Below, one piece after another: positions 28,655-35,891 of a stretch of DNA of 64,000 nucleotides; the first letter of the stretch is position 1, and each line of letters starts with the position of its first letter. The stretch is taken from the NCBI GenBank assembly GCA_003225175.1, contig QIBA01000035.1, positions 1 to 64,000 of the forward strand. Reading direction: 5' to 3'. The notes beneath the pieces are model-generated. The model had not been told where the DNA came from, did not search any database, and worked only from the letters and a program-made list of their open reading frames with translations. Made by a program: the position numbers and the translations under genes. The stretch comes from Acidobacteriota bacterium. GTDB taxonomy: Bacteria > Acidobacteriota > Terriglobia > Terriglobales > Acidobacteriaceae.

Positions 28655-29515
28655 ATGATGCACTTGAATCTGAAAGGGTTCAGCGCCATAGGAATACTAT
28701 CCATTGGGATTTTTTCTTTTACCGGTTGCTCAGTTTCGAATGCCAAACCACCATCCACTAGTACTACGACGACACAGTTAATTGGTTCAGGATCGTCTAC
28801 TTCCGTCAGCACCACCCCTGGTTCGGGCAGCAACGGAGGCGCACCGGTTCCACCGTCGGGAGCGACTGTCATCTCCAATATCCAGAACCAGACGGGATGG
28901 CAGACCTGTGGTGGCTGCGGCAACGACGGGGGTACCGGGCAAGGTCCCGTTTACAACCTAACCCAGGGAATTGCGAGTCCAGCACTGAGCGGCAGCTCAG
29001 CTGACTTCTGGATCGCGGGGGGCCCTGCATATTCAGGCGGATACTACTTCATCGAGCAACCTACAGTACCCAATCCATTGAGCTATCTACGCTATGAGTT
29101 CGACCTTTACATTCCAGGGCAATATGCCAGCGCACCGCAAGCTCTTGAATTCGAGTGTCAGCAGAACTCCGAGGGATACACCTACAACTACGCTTGGCAG
29201 GCTGACTACGACAGCAAGTCCTGGCGCGTGTTTAACTACACGACCAAACATTGGGAACCGACAAGCGTAGGTTTCCAACCGTTTGCCCCAGACACTTGGC
29301 ATCACATCATCGCGATCTACCACGCGTCGGGAACCCAGGTCATGCACGATTCCATCACGGTGGACGGCGTCACCTACCCAGTCAACATCACACATGACGC
29401 GTTGTTTACCGGGAACGGGCTCGAACTCACGAACGCATTCCAGGTGGATCTGGATGCGAGTAGCTCGCCTTATCACATCTATCTCGATAACATGACTGTT
29501 TCATTGAAGGACTAA
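28655..29515 (+). CDS. Exported lipoprotein, LamG/concanavalin-like
   Basis: This 286-residue protein has a lipoprotein signal with lipobox SFTGC (Cys about 25) and then a Ser/Thr/Gly-rich linker of about 50 residues. The folded part begins SNIQNQTGWQTCGGCGNDGG and continues with alternating beta-like, aromatic-rich sequence (YLRYEFDLYIPGQY, WRVFNYTTKHWEP, TWHHIIAIYH). TWHHIIAIYHASG and the closing YLDNMTVSL resemble a LamG/concanavalin-like jelly-roll, so carbohydrate or surface binding is possible. I recall related proteins in Acidobacteria but could not check. The second ATG (28658) is better spaced from AAAGG. Confidence 0.8.
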   Translation: MMHLNLKGFSAIGILSIGIFSFTGCSVSNAKPPSTSTTTTQLIGSGSSTSVSTTPGSGSNGGAPVPPSGATVISNIQNQTGWQTCGGCGNDGGTGQGPVYNLTQGIASPALSGSSADFWIAGGPAYSGGYYFIEQPTVPNPLSYLRYEFDLYIPGQYASAPQALEFECQQNSEGYTYNYAWQADYDSKSWRVFNYTTKHWEPTSVGFQPFAPDTWHHIIAIYHASGTQVMHDSITVDGVTYPVNITHDALFTGNGLELTNAFQVDLDASSSPYHIYLDNMTVSLKD

Positions 29516-29523
29516 GATCAGCT

Positions 29524-29571
29524 CCCGCCCTCGCGAAGAGCGAGGGTGGGACAGTCTGCTCGATCGAGCAG
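29524..29571. terminator. Tandem hairpins after the lipoprotein gene
   Basis: CCCGCCCTCGC-GAAGA-GCGAGGGTGGG (29524-29550) folds into an 11-bp stem with one G-U pair. It is followed by the perfect 16-bp palindrome CTGCTCGATCGAGCAG (29556-29571). There is no U-tract, so it may be a REP-like repeat or RNA-end protector rather than an intrinsic terminator. Confidence 0.45.
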
Positions 29572-29653
29572 CCACCCGGCCATCCTAGTCACCCTGCGGC
29601 TTCCATTCGCTTCCCCATTCGTGATAAGGTTCCACGCCTCGATCGGAGTAAGT

Positions 29654-29986
29654 ATGCAGTCGTACGCTCCAGGTACCGGTCTAGCCCGGACACGCCTCGC
29701 ACTAGCACCTCCCATTCTGGGCATCATTTTCCTCTCTCTAAATCTGTCAGCCACAGATTCAAGGACACAAGCGGGGTTACACATCCAGGTCACGGTTGTT
29801 CACGCTGTGCCCAGCCCAATTTCGCCGAAGGAACACTCGGCGTCCGCGAATTCAATAACGATGCCCACTTCATCACTCGAGATTAAGACCGAAAGACACC
29901 TACTGGATTCCAGTTCCATGAAGGGGAAGAAGCAGCAGGAAGGTGTGCGAGCAGTGCTCGAAACCGTTACCGTCGTGGCTCCGTAG
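29654..29986 (+). CDS. Small exported protein of unknown function
   Basis: This 110-residue ORF starts at ATG with GGAG five bases upstream; the open frame extends further 5' but without a ribosome binding site. An N-terminal hydrophobic segment (LALAPPILGIIFLSLNLSA) looks like a signal peptide. The mature part is polar, beta-rich at first (LHIQVTVVHAV), and ends VRAVLETVTVVAP. No family was recognised. Its last 20 bp overlap the end of the usher-like gene on the other strand. Confidence 0.55.
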   Translation: MQSYAPGTGLARTRLALAPPILGIIFLSLNLSATDSRTQAGLHIQVTVVHAVPSPISPKEHSASANSITMPTSSLEIKTERHLLDSSSMKGKKQQEGVRAVLETVTVVAP

Positions 29987-32900
29987 TTGCGTTCTGCTTC
30001 ATCTGACGGAAGCATTGTGCGATTTCACCGACTGATGGCATTGACTCGCAGATTGCCCGATTCACTTCGTCGTAGGAAATGGCATTCTGCCCACGGCGGG
30101 CCGTGGTCGGCTCCGCAGTAGATGGATTCGATGTTTGCTTCTTACTGCTTAACTGAGCAGGGGCCGGTACAACAGTCGCCAAAGGTGCGGAGGACCCAAC
30201 TTCCTTTCCAATCTTGGCAGGTAACGCCGGTTTCGCTTGGGCTACAGGGGAAGGTGCGACTGCCCGGGGTGGCAGCTCTTTGATTCGCTCACGCACGTGC
30301 GTGTATGCCGAAGTGATTGCTTGCTGTGCACCTGCTGTAGGCGCTCTCAATACATCATCAGTCAGGTAAGGAAGCAGCTCTGCATTGGTTATGATGATTG
30401 TTGCGCCCTGAATCTGCAGAGGCTCAGCCGGCAGCTTCACGGTTCCTGTGGGAATATTGATTCCGTGTGGCAATGGTTGTACGGGCTTGATGGAGACGCT
30501 CAGATCGCCAGCTGGCAAATTGCGTAGCAGAAACTTCCCATCTTTGTCGGTGGTTGCCGTCGACGGCCCGGCTGTGACTTGCGCTCCAGCCACCGGAATC
30601 ATCTCTGCCTCTCCACTTTTTTCCGCGTCGCGCTGGGAAGTAGTTTGGTTCTTTTTTGGCGGCTTTGCGGAACTTCCGGAGAGTTCATCTTGCGCCTTCA
30701 GGAGCACTCTTCCCGAAATAGAACGCAGTGCGCGTAGCGGAAATTCTTCAATGACGGTCGACACTGGGCTGATGTGGATCGGGATCGCCTCAACTGGGCC
30801 GATGTAATTGGCTGGCAGTGAAGCGGGATTTAATGACAGCTTGTAGTCGCCGGGAGTGACGTTGTCGATCTGAAAGTCGCCTGAGCCCCCTGTCTCTATC
30901 TTGCGCACAGTCTTACCGTCATCCAGCAATAACTCGATGCTTCCCATTCCCCTCGAATCAGGTTGGCGATGATTGTCAAAGCGCAGATCGTTGTAAACGC
31001 TTCCCATGAGTCGGGCAAAGTCGAGGATGCCGAAGTTCACTGCAGCAATGCGCTGCTGGATCAAGTCGGCTTCCACTTCGGCGCGTGTCGTCATGCGGAC
31101 TGGGAGGTGGAATTGCGTGAGGGCTAGAGAAACCTGATGCTGATCTGTCGAGACAGAGGCGAATTTGAATCTTCCTTGCGCGTCAGTCAGCGCAGCTTGG
31201 CCGTCCTCGAGGCGTACTTCAACTCCTTCGAGTCCAGGTTCGCCAATGTTGTAGGCGCCATTGATATTCATGTCGCGAAAGACGCGGCCTTCGATCACGC
31301 GCTCACGATGTAACAGCATCGACGCGGGAGCCGCCGTGAAGCTCTTCAGGAAGCCGAAGGTGAAGATGGTCGTGCGTACGAGATTCGTCTGGCGACTGTC
31401 GAAGAGGTACACGTTGCTTAGCGAAGAGCGAAATTGCAAAGTCGGACGGAACTGATAATTGAGCGAATAGCCGACCGATTGTGTCCAGTTGTTTTGCTGG
31501 GTGGCATTGCTGCCGTAAGTGAAAGAAAGGCTCGGATTCAGGTGCAGCTTCGATCCAATGGCAAGGTTTGCGGCAGCCGAAACAGTAGTTCCTTTCGGCT
31601 GCTGCGCTGCGAGCAATGCCTTTACTTCAGGCGGAAAGTTCGATGAATCGATGAAAGCCGACGGATTGGCTTGAAACTGCGCTTGCAACACCGGCGACAG
31701 CAAGCTGAGTTCCTGATTGAGCTTTGAGACTAGGGATGGGTTCACGCGATCGTGCTCCACCCCCAGCAGCAATGTCTGAGTCTTGATCGGTAGACTGATG
31801 GAATCGCGAACCGTGAGACGATCCTCCGACGTGATCTGGAGAGGATCCTGAATCGATCCAATCGTTGCTTGGGCGGTGTTCGCGATTCTCTGCGTGATCT
31901 GCGAGCTCAGCGAGACATCGTAGCGATCTCCCGTAGCAGTGGTTGCTGTAAATCCACCGCTGTTTCGGCTATAGGTGTAAGCAAAATAGACAGCCTCGCC
32001 ACGAGAGATCCGAAATCCCATATTAGGACTTAGATAATCGCTGCTCCCTTTGTAGCGATAGATCAATCCTGGAGTTACGTCCGTATGGTCGTAGTAAAGC
32101 CCTTGACTCAGCCGCGAGCTGAGCCGGTAATTAAAACCGGCTCGCGTATTCGACGTTCCTGAGAACAGCGACTGAATCTGGCTCAGCGGAAACGTCTGCG
32201 AAGCGAAAATGCTGCTTGCATATCCGGAAAAGCGAAAGTTGGTGTAAGAAACATCTGCGCGCCCCATCTTGCCGTCATTGCTGATACCGCCCTGCGCGCC
32301 GAGAAGTAGACCTTTGGTCAGGCGAAAGCTGGCTCCGGCATTCTGCATTACGTAGTCGCGACGTTGCAGAGCAGTGCCCACGTTTACGGGAATGTTCAGA
32401 TAGCTGGTACCGCTAAAGAAGCTCAATCGTTCGTTCTGTTTCCGATGAAAAATAAAGCCAGCGGCGTCACGCGAGGCGTTCAGGGCAAGGAAGTAGTAAG
32501 GAATCGTTGTGCCTCCAAAAAACGAGAACTCATTTTTGCCACGATAAAGACTGAGGCTGGCACCGCGCAGTCCGGCGCCTCCTGGCGCTGAGAACTGGTT
32601 AATTCGATCCTCACCGGTTTCGCCGGTCAAACTCTGACTGAAATCAACCAGGTTGAGGGCGAAGCCTGAAGTGCGATACGCAATGCTTCCTGTTCGGAGA
32701 TTAACTGCGTGTCCCCCGAATTGGTTGTTGTTCTCGAACTGACTCACCGCATCGAGGCGATTGTCGCCAACCTGCTGTGACCAGGAAAACGAATCAAAGA
32801 GCGTGTAATTGGATGTACCACCAGAGTTGGAGATCTGGAAATCGCTGCCGAGTGTCCCATGCGCCAGCTCCGATTCGCGACGCAGCAGACTCGGCGGAAT

Positions 32901-33224
32901 AAGCTTCATCGGGCGCTCGATGACGTGAACGATGATACTGACAGGAGCGCCGTTCACATAAGCCAGCGCCACAGTCTCGCCGCGTGAGAGTCCGGCAAAT
33001 GTAATGACCTCGTTGCCGAGTTCGGCGTGAGCGACTTCCTCGTCAAGCACAATTACGCTGGTTACGCCAGGCGCTGTGATGGAGTGAGTCGATTTCCAAT
33101 AGACGTCTACGCTTGAAACAACGCCCGGTTCTGCGGAGAAAACCTGCGATGGGCACAACAGTATCGATGCGAAAAGCAGGCAGGCTGCTCCCGCGACGAT
33201 CCACGCTTTGTTCCCCAACGCCAT
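29967..33224 (-). CDS. Usher-like outer-membrane protein with CpaC/RcpC-type N-domain and beta-sandwich repeats
   Basis: This 1085-residue exported protein has a signal peptide at 1-31 (VFSAEP). Residues about 35-110 resemble the pilus-assembly N-terminal domain of CpaC/RcpC secretins (GVTSVIVLDEEVAHAELGNE, then VIERP). Residues about 115-630 are a long series of alternating aromatic/polar strands typical of an outer-membrane beta-barrel (DSFSWSQQVGDNRLDAVSQF, GFALNLVDFSQSLTGETGE). Three carboxypeptidase-regulatory or SdrD-B-like beta-sandwich domains follow at about 640-730 (EGRVFRDMNINGAYNIGEPG), 735-830 (GSVYNDLRFDNHRQP) and 834-930 (SGRVLLKAQD to DKDGKFLLRNLPAGD). The end is Pro/Ala-rich. 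It starts five bases after the chaperone gene, so usher function is inferred from context. A classical FimD-type usher is not recognisable. Confidence 0.8.
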   Translation of the reverse strand: MALGNKAWIVAGAACLLFASILLCPSQVFSAEPGVVSSVDVYWKSTHSITAPGVTSVIVLDEEVAHAELGNEVITFAGLSRGETVALAYVNGAPVSIIVHVIERPMKLIPPSLLRRESELAHGTLGSDFQISNSGGTSNYTLFDSFSWSQQVGDNRLDAVSQFENNNQFGGHAVNLRTGSIAYRTSGFALNLVDFSQSLTGETGEDRINQFSAPGGAGLRGASLSLYRGKNEFSFFGGTTIPYYFLALNASRDAAGFIFHRKQNERLSFFSGTSYLNIPVNVGTALQRRDYVMQNAGASFRLTKGLLLGAQGGISNDGKMGRADVSYTNFRFSGYASSIFASQTFPLSQIQSLFSGTSNTRAGFNYRLSSRLSQGLYYDHTDVTPGLIYRYKGSSDYLSPNMGFRISRGEAVYFAYTYSRNSGGFTATTATGDRYDVSLSSQITQRIANTAQATIGSIQDPLQITSEDRLTVRDSISLPIKTQTLLLGVEHDRVNPSLVSKLNQELSLLSPVLQAQFQANPSAFIDSSNFPPEVKALLAAQQPKGTTVSAAANLAIGSKLHLNPSLSFTYGSNATQQNNWTQSVGYSLNYQFRPTLQFRSSLSNVYLFDSRQTNLVRTTIFTFGFLKSFTAAPASMLLHRERVIEGRVFRDMNINGAYNIGEPGLEGVEVRLEDGQAALTDAQGRFKFASVSTDQHQVSLALTQFHLPVRMTTRAEVEADLIQQRIAAVNFGILDFARLMGSVYNDLRFDNHRQPDSRGMGSIELLLDDGKTVRKIETGGSGDFQIDNVTPGDYKLSLNPASLPANYIGPVEAIPIHISPVSTVIEEFPLRALRSISGRVLLKAQDELSGSSAKPPKKNQTTSQRDAEKSGEAEMIPVAGAQVTAGPSTATTDKDGKFLLRNLPAGDLSVSIKPVQPLPHGINIPTGTVKLPAEPLQIQGATIIITNAELLPYLTDDVLRAPTAGAQQAITSAYTHVRERIKELPPRAVAPSPVAQAKPALPAKIGKEVGSSAPLATVVPAPAQLSSKKQTSNPSTAEPTTARRGQNAISYDEVNRAICESMPSVGEIAQCFRQMKQNATTEPRR

Positions 33225-33229
33225 CGTTC

Positions 33230-34051
33230 CTACTTACTTGCGGTCTTCGCCGGAATTGTGAACGCAATCTGGCGTGTCTCCACATGAGTGCCGCCATACA
33301 CGACCGAGAGAACCGCGGTGTACTCTCCGGCATTCAAGTCTCCATTCCAGTCCACTTGCATTGTGTCCTTCTGTCCGGGAAGGAATCGCTTGATCAGGCT
33401 CTCCGACTTTCCAACCAACTTATACTGCAGATTCAGAATGGCCAGGCGGGCCTGCGGAAATACGTGAGTGTTGCTCTCGTTATCGACTGAGAAGCTGACC
33501 TTCAGCGCTTCGGTCGCCGTGGGAGGCATAAGTTTCAATTCCTCGAGCCTTACGGCGTATGCCTCAGAGTTCTTGGCCGTCAGCAGCACCAGACAACCGA
33601 GGCGCATGTTTGTGAATATTTTTCGGCCATCCTCGGTGGTTTTGTCGCTGGGGATGGGCTTCGATTCGACGAACAGTACGGCATAGTATCCGCCACGCGC
33701 GCCCACCGGCGGCGTGACAATTGCTCTCATCTTTTGCGACCCGCCGGCAGGAACTTCGAACCTTTCCGGAACAAACTGGATCCAGTTCGCGGCTGATCGC
33801 GGCGAAGTTCCTGGAGCAGCGAAGACTTTTTCGTTTTTGTCGTTAAACCAGAGATCTGTGATTTGCACGTGCAGTTCAACTGGCTGGCTACCGTTGTTCG
33901 CAACAGCCAATGAGTATTCGAAGGGAACTCCGGGCTTGAAGTCCTCGACGATCTGCGCGGGAGCCAAGGCAATCGCCTGCGTGAACGCGGCGCCCGGAAC
34001 GAAAAGGATTAGAAAGATTAGAAAGCGCAGCTTGGGGGAAGTGAGTTTCAT
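33230..34051 (-). CDS. PapD-like periplasmic fimbrial chaperone
   Basis: This 273-residue protein has a signal peptide (LRFLIFLILFVPGAAFTQA). Two Ig-like domains follow with the chaperone pattern: LAPAQIVEDFKPGVPFEYSL, ANWIQFVPERFEVPAGGSQK, MRAIVTPPVGARGGYYAVLF and FSVDNESNTHVFPQARLAIL. The second domain ends GEYTAVLSVVYGG. Proteins of this type hold pilus subunits by donor-strand complementation. The gene overlaps the preceding subunit gene by one base (TAATG) and precedes the usher-like gene by five bases, so the three are translationally linked. Confidence 0.82.
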   Translation of the reverse strand: MKLTSPKLRFLIFLILFVPGAAFTQAIALAPAQIVEDFKPGVPFEYSLAVANNGSQPVELHVQITDLWFNDKNEKVFAAPGTSPRSAANWIQFVPERFEVPAGGSQKMRAIVTPPVGARGGYYAVLFVESKPIPSDKTTEDGRKIFTNMRLGCLVLLTAKNSEAYAVRLEELKLMPPTATEALKVSFSVDNESNTHVFPQARLAILNLQYKLVGKSESLIKRFLPGQKDTMQVDWNGDLNAGEYTAVLSVVYGGTHVETRQIAFTIPAKTASK

Positions 34052-35154
34052 TATTGCACCGTCATTGTGTATGTAAGCGTTGCAGTTTCAGCGGAACCGG
34101 TAACGATCCCAGGCGCGTTTGTGTTGGCAACGAAGAGTCCGAGATATCTCGTGATTGATGAGCCACTCGCGACCGAGTTGGTGATTTGAGTTGGAGATCC
34201 GGAATTGTTGGAAATTGCACTGTAGCCCGATCCGCTGCTGCCGGAATCGTAGAGTTTGAGAATTGCGGAATGAACGAAGTCGGTGCTCACGTAGGTACTG
34301 ATTGTGGTCCCGCTCGTTGCAGTAAAGCCGCTGAATGTCGGTTGGATCAGATAAGGACTTGTGTAGAGAGCCCCGTTGGCTACTTGGCCGTTCACGATCG
34401 TTAGGCCTGCTGCGGGGTTAATGCCAAGGCCATTTACATTTCCGAACCGTGCTGTGAAATCAGGTGTGGATCCCGTGGGCGTAAAGGTCAGGCCCGTCGA
34501 ACTCGCCAAAGTCATCTTGAGCGCGGTCTGGACTGTTTCCGCCGGGTTGGCCAGCGTCAACTGTAAGGTCTGTTGAAGATTATTGTGGCTCGCATCGTAC
34601 ACATGGAAGGTCACCGTTGCCGAATCGCTTGATGTGATCGCGAATCCATTGGTGTTTGCTACGAACAATCCCAGATATGCCGTGTAGTTTGCGTTATTCG
34701 GCGTAGACCCCAGAGCAACTATTTCGCCAGCTGCGCTAGTCGGCAAAGTTGAGTAACTGGTCTCGACCGTGCAAGCTCCGGAGACAGAACAGCTCCGAAG
34801 TTGAATGACGCTGGATGACGTGGTGAAGTTCGTCGATACATAAGCTCTTACTTCACCGTGATGACCGTTGTTTGCTCCGCTCAGGACGATCGTGTACGGC
34901 GTGTAGTACAGCACTCCGCCGGTTGTAGCAATTACCGTTAACCCGCCTGATGGATTTCCAATGGACGGCGTCCCGATTCCCAGGCCGTTCACATTTCCGA
35001 AACCGGCACGGTAAGGAGTTGCTCCTGCGATCGTGACTCCTGATGCATTCGTCTGCAGCGTGGCGCTTTGTGCAGCGCATGGAATCGGAGTGCCAAGATG
35101 TAACCAGCCAGTCAGAGCCAGCGTGAACGCGATTTTTGGGAGGGTCTTCATCAT
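34051..35154 (-). CDS. Exported two-domain subunit, tandem pilin-like repeats
   Basis: From the ATG at 35154 the protein is 367 residues; the open frame continues to 35262. The N-terminus MMKTLPKIAFTLALTGWLHL to CAAQS is a signal peptide. Two homologous domains follow, each with GFGNVNGLGI or RFGNVNGLGI, YYTPYTI or YTSPYLI, AYVSTNF or TYVSTDF, YLGLFVANTN (in both) and a final strand (SATVTFHV, ETATLTYTMTVQ). Both are related to the single domain of the 204-residue neighbour. A C-terminal alternating strand is typical of donor-strand-exchanged pilins. It may be a tip or adhesive subunit. No good Shine-Dalgarno is visible; the start is chosen from the signal peptide and the hairpin upstream. 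Confidence 0.78.
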   Translation of the reverse strand: MMKTLPKIAFTLALTGWLHLGTPIPCAAQSATLQTNASGVTIAGATPYRAGFGNVNGLGIGTPSIGNPSGGLTVIATTGGVLYYTPYTIVLSGANNGHHGEVRAYVSTNFTTSSSVIQLRSCSVSGACTVETSYSTLPTSAAGEIVALGSTPNNANYTAYLGLFVANTNGFAITSSDSATVTFHVYDASHNNLQQTLQLTLANPAETVQTALKMTLASSTGLTFTPTGSTPDFTARFGNVNGLGINPAAGLTIVNGQVANGALYTSPYLIQPTFSGFTATSGTTISTYVSTDFVHSAILKLYDSGSSGSGYSAISNNSGSPTQITNSVASGSSITRYLGLFVANTNAPGIVTGSAETATLTYTMTVQ

Positions 35155-35167
35155 GCCCAAACGTAGC

Positions 35168-35214
35168 AATCCACGCTGAGCCTTGGATTGCTTCCGAGAG
35201 CGCAGCGTGGATTG
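35168..35214 (-). promoter_or_regulatory. 12-bp inverted repeat before the second subunit gene
   Basis: CAATCCACGCTG (35168-35179) and CAGCGTGGATTG (35203-35214) are perfect inverted copies 23 bases apart. In the minus-strand transcript this hairpin lies between the first and second subunit genes, 14 bases before the probable ATG. It could limit read-through, stabilise the upstream transcript or hide the start. Confidence 0.55.
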
Positions 35215-35276
35215 GTTGATCTGACTCGTCAGTGGCATGTTGTTTCCGGTTTTGGGGCTCACTGGAAACCCATACC

Positions 35277-35891
35277 TTAGTTAACGGTTAACGTGAATGT
35301 AACGGTTGCGGAGGTCGCGCCGGTTAGGCCTGCACCGTTCGTGTTAGCAATGCTCACACCGACATAACGCGATACTGCGGTGCCGCTGGTTGCATTCGTC
35401 GCGATAGTATCTGGCGAACCAGAGTTCGTGCTCATCGCGCTGAAGCCGTTAGCTGCAGGAACAGCCGCCGAGTTGGCGGTGTCGCGAACGAGCGAGACGT
35501 TAGCCAACGAGAAGTTCGAAGAGACGTAAGCCGTAACAGTGTTGTTGCTGGTGGCCTGTGACGTGAAGCTCGGGGTGAAACGATATTCGGTGTAGTAAAT
35601 GGCGTTACCACCTGTTGCTGCCGGCGTGTACTTGCTGCCGCAGCCGCCGTTGTTGATTGCCATCCCGTCAACAGTTCCGAAGTTCATTTGAAAATCAGTG
35701 GTAGTTCCAGCGCTGATCGCGCAGGATCCGGCTGCTGCGCCTGTGCTCAGCGTGAGCTGCACAGCTGATTGAATCGTTGCCGATACCTGAAGTGTCGGAG
35801 CAACGGTGTTTGTGCCTGTCGCCTGTGTCGCAGCGAAGGATGTCGATGCCAGCAACAGGGCTGCGAAGATTGCGAGTGTCATGCGTTTCAT
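35277..35891 (-). CDS. Exported pilin-like subunit
   Basis: This 204-residue protein has a signal peptide (MKRMTLAIFAALLLASTSFA). AGGAG about ten bases upstream supports the ATG at 35891; the longer frame lacks a better site. The mature N-terminus (VAPTLQVSATIQSAVQLTLS) could serve as a donor strand. Two Cys (GSCAI, GGCGSKY) could form a disulfide. The body shares MNFGTVDGMAI, YYTEYRFTPSF, TAYVSSNF, RYVGVSIANTN and the closing SATVTFTLTVN with the two-domain neighbour. It is the first gene of the chaperone-usher-like operon and probably its major subunit. Confidence 0.82.
   Translation of the reverse strand: MKRMTLAIFAALLLASTSFAATQATGTNTVAPTLQVSATIQSAVQLTLSTGAAAGSCAISAGTTTDFQMNFGTVDGMAINNGGCGSKYTPAATGGNAIYYTEYRFTPSFTSQATSNNTVTAYVSSNFSLANVSLVRDTANSAAVPAANGFSAMSTNSGSPDTIATNATSGTAVSRYVGVSIANTNGAGLTGATSATVTFTLTVN

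Follow-up and report, generated by a model that had tools for sequence, protein, structure and literature searches.

Chaperone-usher pili are known mainly from Proteobacteria, and the N-terminal docking domain and the plug of the usher FimD are thought to be essential. In a review of outer-membrane pores, fimbrial ushers are placed in Proteobacteria, Spirochaetae, Cyanobacteria and Deinococcus/Thermus only, with Acidobacteria not included (PMC4827864). The window analysed here, a stretch of 64,000 nucleotides from an Acidobacteriota bacterium (contig QIBA01000035.1, positions 1 to 64,000), holds four co-directional minus-strand open reading frames (ORFs), spanning 35891 down to 29967, for a pilin-like subunit, a two-domain subunit, a PapD-like chaperone and a large usher-like protein. 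We consider it highly probable that these four genes form a divergent chaperone-usher pilus operon. The kind of system is known, whereas the branch is new: usher models do not see its usher, whose N-domain is replaced, in which no plug was detected and which carries three C-terminal domains. We found no description of such a system in the open-access literature, although subscription papers or database annotations could hold one.

How does this locus compare with the described pili? With the classical chaperone-usher pili (FimA-FimC-FimD-FimH, Pap) it shares the gene logic, the chaperone homology, the predicted barrel fold of the usher, a putative two-domain tip subunit and an N-terminal extension, but its usher lacks a sequence match to PF00577, PapC_N or PapC_C, lacks a plug in the model, and is predicted to have about 26 rather than 24 strands. 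With the alternative (alpha) pili (CFA/I, CS1, Ecp) it has in common that CfaB and CfaE are the best fold matches of its modelled subunit, that EcpB is the best chaperone-usher chaperone by sequence, and that the EcpC usher, too, is without PF00577 and carries a weak carboxypeptidase-regulatory-like signal at its C-terminus. It departs from them in the absence of CooC_C, TcfC, EcpB_C and MatB domains and of a TcfC-type plug, in the putative secretin-type N-domain and the three C-terminal domains of its usher, where EcpC shows a single such signal, and in its Acidobacteriota host. The archaic (Csu-type) pili share with it the chaperone superfamily and a spread outside Proteobacteria; they differ in the usher, which here lacks PF00577, and in the chaperone, which here has Ala at the site that aligns with the archaic carboxylate anchor Arg89.

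An initial annotation of the window had described four tightly spaced minus-strand genes, and the reading frames, the 1-bp overlap of the two-domain subunit and chaperone genes (TAATG at 34051) and the 5-bp gap between the chaperone gene and the large gene (33225-33229) all stand as it gave them. The pilin gene starts with ATG at 35891, preceded by a purine-rich ribosome-binding site (RBS), GAGGAGAAGAG, and the two-domain subunit gene starts with GTG, an in-frame ATG at 35154 being the alternative. The operon and its parts, as read from sequence and from AlphaFold2 (AF2) models, are as follows.

35277..35891, minus strand: major-pilin-like subunit, exported, with signal peptide and RBS; conserved family A6, homologous to domain 2 of the two-domain subunit.
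35769..35828, minus strand: N-terminal extension of the pilin, about TQATGTNTVAPTLQVSATIQ, the proposed donor strand, with alternate hydrophobics in 9/9 aligned pilins.
34051..35262, minus strand: two-domain, putatively tip-type subunit of 403 residues, from an AF2 model with PDB matches to CFA/I pilins and the FimH, LpfD and CupB6 adhesins.
34531..34581, minus strand: linker strand between the subunit domains, the proposed in-cis G strand of domain 1 (model strand 165-181), aligned with the pilin extension by hhalign.
33230..34051, minus strand: PapD-like periplasmic chaperone of 273 residues, with hhalign matches to chaperone-usher chaperones and an invariant Pro95.
29967..33224, minus strand: usher-like outer-membrane protein of 1085 residues, from an AF2 model whose PDB matches 1-11 are FimD/PapC ushers.
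32919..33113, minus strand: predicted small N-terminal beta-domain of the type II/type III secretion system (T2SS/T3SS) pil_N (CpaC) type, model residues 38-102; PF13629 in 6/18 family members.
31335..32861, minus strand: predicted transmembrane beta-barrel of about 26 strands, model residues 122-630, aligned with the FimD/PapC translocation pores.
31593..31745, minus strand: insert of four short, low-confidence helices (residues 494-544) that separates strands 21 and 22; proposed substitute for a lid or plug.
30390..31298, minus strand: three transthyretin/SdrD_B/CarboxypepD_reg-like C-terminal domains, from Pfam and model residues 643-945.
29982..30074, minus strand: C-terminal tail, residues 1051-1081, preceded by an Ala/Pro-rich linker and modelled as helix; congeners have a similar tail.

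The four-gene set is not a product of chance, because the same genes recur in the same order in 16 other genomes. Synteny was counted with gene-family hidden Markov models, one per gene, run on every ORF of the retrieved loci. With the window's own genome, the order pilin, two-domain subunit, chaperone, large protein is found in 17 genomes, of which seven (L091-L097) were reached via the chaperone and are not independent of it; the initial annotation had named a lack of conserved co-occurrence of the four genes as one result that would refute it, and the co-occurrence is conserved. The large protein used as query has relatives in the same genus (four genomes), near full-length ones in two other genera of the family, and others more widely in the class. 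At 17 of the 17 assessable loci found through it, namely those reaching far enough upstream (one other, L073, begins inside the large gene), the chaperone gene lies immediately upstream on the same strand. A single-protein scan of genome contigs returned zero relatives, and the chaperone alignment as query found 15; congeneric contigs bear names such as 'Acidobacteria bacterium gp1', and those further out 'Acidobacteriaceae', 'Candidatus Angelobacter' and 'Terriglobia'.

Further afield, the chaperone is matched in 30 of 199 genomes of the phylum, and in the 13 phylum loci listed with their neighbours each chaperone is clustered with an ORF of 547-1312 residues, with pilin-like ORFs in nearly all. 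In the more distant loci the same chaperone family has other barrel proteins as neighbours, together with one or several pilin-like genes, and a profile of nine such barrels matches the large-protein family of the window at 99.9% (3.9e-34). A profile of the usher itself gave matches in 222 of 299 class genomes; this raw tally was discarded because most matches were carboxypeptidase-regulatory repeats of unrelated proteins, and matches that span the barrel occur in about 14 genomes. One locus (L031 4541-9893) has a chaperone-usher pair that lacks a recognised upstream pilin gene; the ORF after the pair resembles a type IV pilus PilX-type protein. Elsewhere in the phylum there are also archaic-type chaperone-usher clusters (L155 35-3617, with PapD_N and PF00577; L146 14574-18753).

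Sequence comparison places the chaperone in the PapD superfamily. Pfam gives only a sub-threshold Ig-like match, and profile-profile alignment with hhalign reaches 92.4% (P 5e-7) against seven E. coli K-12 chaperone-usher chaperones, with both domains covered, 87.6% (3.5e-6) against EcpB alone, and 97.6% (3.7e-12) against the archaic-type chaperone of L155, which itself scores 54 bits with PapD_N and adjoins a PF00577 usher. The controls, E. coli pilins (4%) and the subunits of the same system (0.6%), gave no match. Pro60 of EcpB has been described as the only residue invariant across the chaperone-usher superfamily (PMC4654587). The corresponding P95 of the window chaperone is invariant in an alignment with EcpB, FimC and SfmC (A13) and is kept in 25 of the 28 members of the wider chaperone family (A11). 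R150 in the G1-type strand aligns with an Arg of EcpB (ARIGT), and PMR and R motifs are found in simple-operon relatives. When the chaperone family was compared with the PDB by sequence, the two best families were the Gram-positive WxLIP (3.6e-6) and EcpB (3e-4). WxLIP (PDB 9i25, 9i1y) matches the chaperone over most of its length, better by sequence than any chaperone-usher chaperone in the PDB, and WxL clusters may be linked in evolution to chaperone-usher systems.

Both subunits probably have an Ig-like fold that lacks its last (G) strand, as judged from a model for the two-domain subunit and from homology for the pilin. The AF2 model of the two-domain subunit (predicted local distance difference test, pLDDT, 87.1; predicted template modelling score, pTM, 0.80) consists of two beta-sandwich domains, with a long strand (165-181) after the F-type strand of domain 1, and with domain 2 stopping at its F-type strand without a G strand. 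Over its whole length the pilin is homologous to domain 2 plus the preceding linker (hhalign 99.9%, 1.4e-36), the linker being the counterpart of the pilin's N-terminal extension, in which hydrophobic residues occupy every second position (L-V-A-I pattern) in 9/9 homologues. Such a donor-strand-type extension is absent from the two-domain subunits, whose domain 1 opens directly at strand A. The simplest reading is that the two-domain subunit forms the tip, with the linker strand closing domain 1 in cis and domain 2 keeping an open groove. A PDB sequence search with the subunit profile gave no match. Searched by structure with Foldseek, the subunit model has five CFA/I pilins at the top, led by a CfaE-CfaB fusion (3f83, E 2.3e-7), and then FimH, LpfD and CupB6, mixed with unrelated beta-sandwich proteins (peptidylarginine deiminase, integrins); the VIA comparison gave Z 10.0 for CfaB-CfaB and 8-9 for FimH, with residues 3-340 aligned (Z 8-10 overall). 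Together with the chaperone homology and the gene order, the fold supports the fibre operon with pilin-like subunits and a PapD-like chaperone that had been proposed from the letters of the DNA.

What, then, is the large protein? The initial annotation had taken it for part of a distinct assembly machine without a recognisable FimD core. By sequence this description of the core stands, since no usher model of Pfam matches; by predicted fold it does not, and a different machine is not supported in the form proposed, FimD and PapC ushers being matched ahead of other PDB proteins. Judged from its model, the protein resembles an usher that has diverged, not a machine of another kind. The AF2 model has an N-domain (38-102), then about 26 barrel strands (122-630), among which the insert (494-544) lies, and after these three C-terminal beta domains (643-945) and a tail of low confidence. 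FimD/PapC ushers occupy Foldseek ranks 1-11 (E 3.1e-18 to 2e-14); behind them come a surface protein of Bacillus (4e-12) and more ushers, and other barrels follow at about 1e-9. In VIA, the aligned length for full-length ushers is 427-443 residues, from the barrel through the C-terminal domains, whereas for porins it is about 240-310. The carboxypeptidase-regulatory domains of the initial annotation are borne out by Pfam, which finds carboxypeptidase-regulatory/SdrD_B/SpaA-type repeats at about 647-945 and nothing but these C-terminal repeats. We regard the domains as usher-like and not foreign, because EcpC of E. coli shows the same Pfam signal weakly within its CooC_C domain. The CpaC/RcpC-type N-domain that had also been proposed fared less evenly: PF13629 does not match the window protein, but it matches 6 of 18 family members (best E 9e-5). 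PF00577 is absent from the window's own genome and present in 1 of 100 genomes searched.

Several observations weigh against an usher and, more generally, against a chaperone-usher system. No Usher (PF00577), PapC_N or PapC_C match was obtained in the large protein or its 18 family members, although E. coli FimD is recognised by the usher model at 1e-228. TcfC and CooC_C likewise occur in 0/18 members, and the EcpC control matches both. The model of the large protein is only moderate (pLDDT 70.6, pTM 0.41), and it contains no beta-sandwich plug of the FimD type; the sole stretch of more than 25 residues between strands is the helical insert at 494-544, of low local confidence, which carries a conserved SP..L..F..NP motif. 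The VIA Z-score alone is a tie between ushers and porins, and because it does not separate them the argument for an usher fold rests on the Foldseek order and the aligned length. With hhalign, the large protein reaches only 7% against E. coli ushers; EcpC, an annotated usher, scores just 3.6% against the same usher profile, and because this control fails as well we do not count the failed alignment against usher identity. In the chaperone, finally, the site aligned with Arg89, a residue common to archaic and alternative chaperones (PMC4654587), is Ala, and the anchor residues are not securely assignable.

The relatives appear to be modular. The window family has the pil_N type of N-domain, other large proteins have a copper-amine-oxidase N-terminal domain (PF07833; L144 3292-5838, L032 6081-8723), and no N-domain was detected in those of the L079 type. 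Peptidoglycan-binding tails of the LysM (L034 4985-8101), SPOR (L151 1152-5087) and OmpA (L037 1286-4210) kinds are attached to usher-like barrels of relatives. This points to docking and anchoring modules that would be changeable around a constant barrel. More tentatively, and with somewhat less than even confidence, we propose an Acidobacteriota branch of chaperone-usher systems in which the usher does without the plug and N-domain of FimD, docks its substrates through a secretin-type domain (in cousins one of copper-amine-oxidase-N type), is closed by the helical insert, and in several members is tied to peptidoglycan by LysM, OmpA or SPOR tails.

How might such a pilus be assembled? We envision a scenario whereby the subunits cross into the periplasm by Sec and the chaperone lends a strand to the incomplete Ig fold of each (donor-strand complementation). 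The two-domain tip subunit would go first, with its linker strand closing domain 1 and leaving the groove of domain 2 open, as model and alignment suggest. The barrel protein might then act as usher, taking chaperone-subunit complexes via its N-domain or its C-terminal domains. The N-terminal extension of an incoming pilin would displace the chaperone strand in an usher-catalysed step and so join the subunits, and the fibre would be extruded through the barrel. Polymerisation, docking and gating, like the function of the fibre, are what we infer for this locus.

Alternatively, the four genes may encode a distinct secretion system, in which subunits exported by the barrel remain on the surface singly or as a lattice and the chaperone does no more than keep them soluble, without a donor-strand polymer. 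The large protein has neither a plug nor a classical N-terminal domain, the LysM, SPOR and OmpA tails of several relatives could make the barrel a static surface platform, and the chaperone profile matches Gram-positive WxLIP somewhat better than EcpB. We nevertheless hold this alternative to be unlikely, given a donor-strand-type extension that is present in the pilin and missing from the tip-type subunit, a subunit fold best matched by donor-strand-complemented pilins, and pilin genes that in relatives have been duplicated into several copies. Less probable still is a cell-surface system related to the Gram-positive WxL/WxLIP one that sits in a diderm and to which a barrel was added. The two-domain WxLIP of monoderms aligns over most of the chaperone (at 3.6e-6, as given above), WxL clusters also unite small and large surface proteins and a partner, and one relative matches PF06030 (WxLIP_PGBD) at E 6e-6, just under the cut-off. 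The window system, however, has a barrel protein and a diderm host, no WxL domain was found in its subunits or in the relatives scanned, the archaic chaperone of L155 is matched no less strongly, and operon layout, subunit fold and barrel fold all indicate chaperone-usher pili. Least credible is that the large protein is secretin-like, or belongs to another known outer-membrane family outside the ushers, and lies by chance beside a chaperone-pilin cluster, as the CpaC/RcpC-type N-domain of 6/18 members might suggest: no secretin domain is among the families listed in the Pfam scan of the 18 members, for which reason secretin identity was rejected, pil_N and secretin domains do not occur together in the window family, unlike in CpaC/RcpC, the protein is predicted to be a single-chain barrel of about 26 strands with an usher-type match, and the chaperone is immediately upstream at every assessable locus.

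A divergent chaperone-usher operon of this kind stays hidden from annotation that relies on PF00577, because no Pfam usher model detects the large protein. Natural ushers in which the supposedly essential parts of FimD are apparently replaced would make the minimal requirements of an usher directly testable, and the locus suggests one way in which soil Acidobacteriota may attach to surfaces.

Next to the operon lies a fifth gene, which the initial annotation had overlooked.

29546..29986, plus strand: small exported protein whose gene converges on the usher gene and shares 20 bp with its 3' end; kept in about ten loci.

Its probable start is the ATG at 29654, and the protein has the motif LHIxVTVV near the mature N-terminus and VxTxTVV at the C-terminus. 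Homologues adjoin the usher gene in those roughly ten loci, which belong to several genera, and it is possible that the protein is an extra component of the pilus. Beyond it lies a lipoprotein-like ORF (28655-29515, plus strand) with a weak concanavalin-A-like (Laminin_G_3) match, which at least two congeners (L025, L028) also keep beside the operon.

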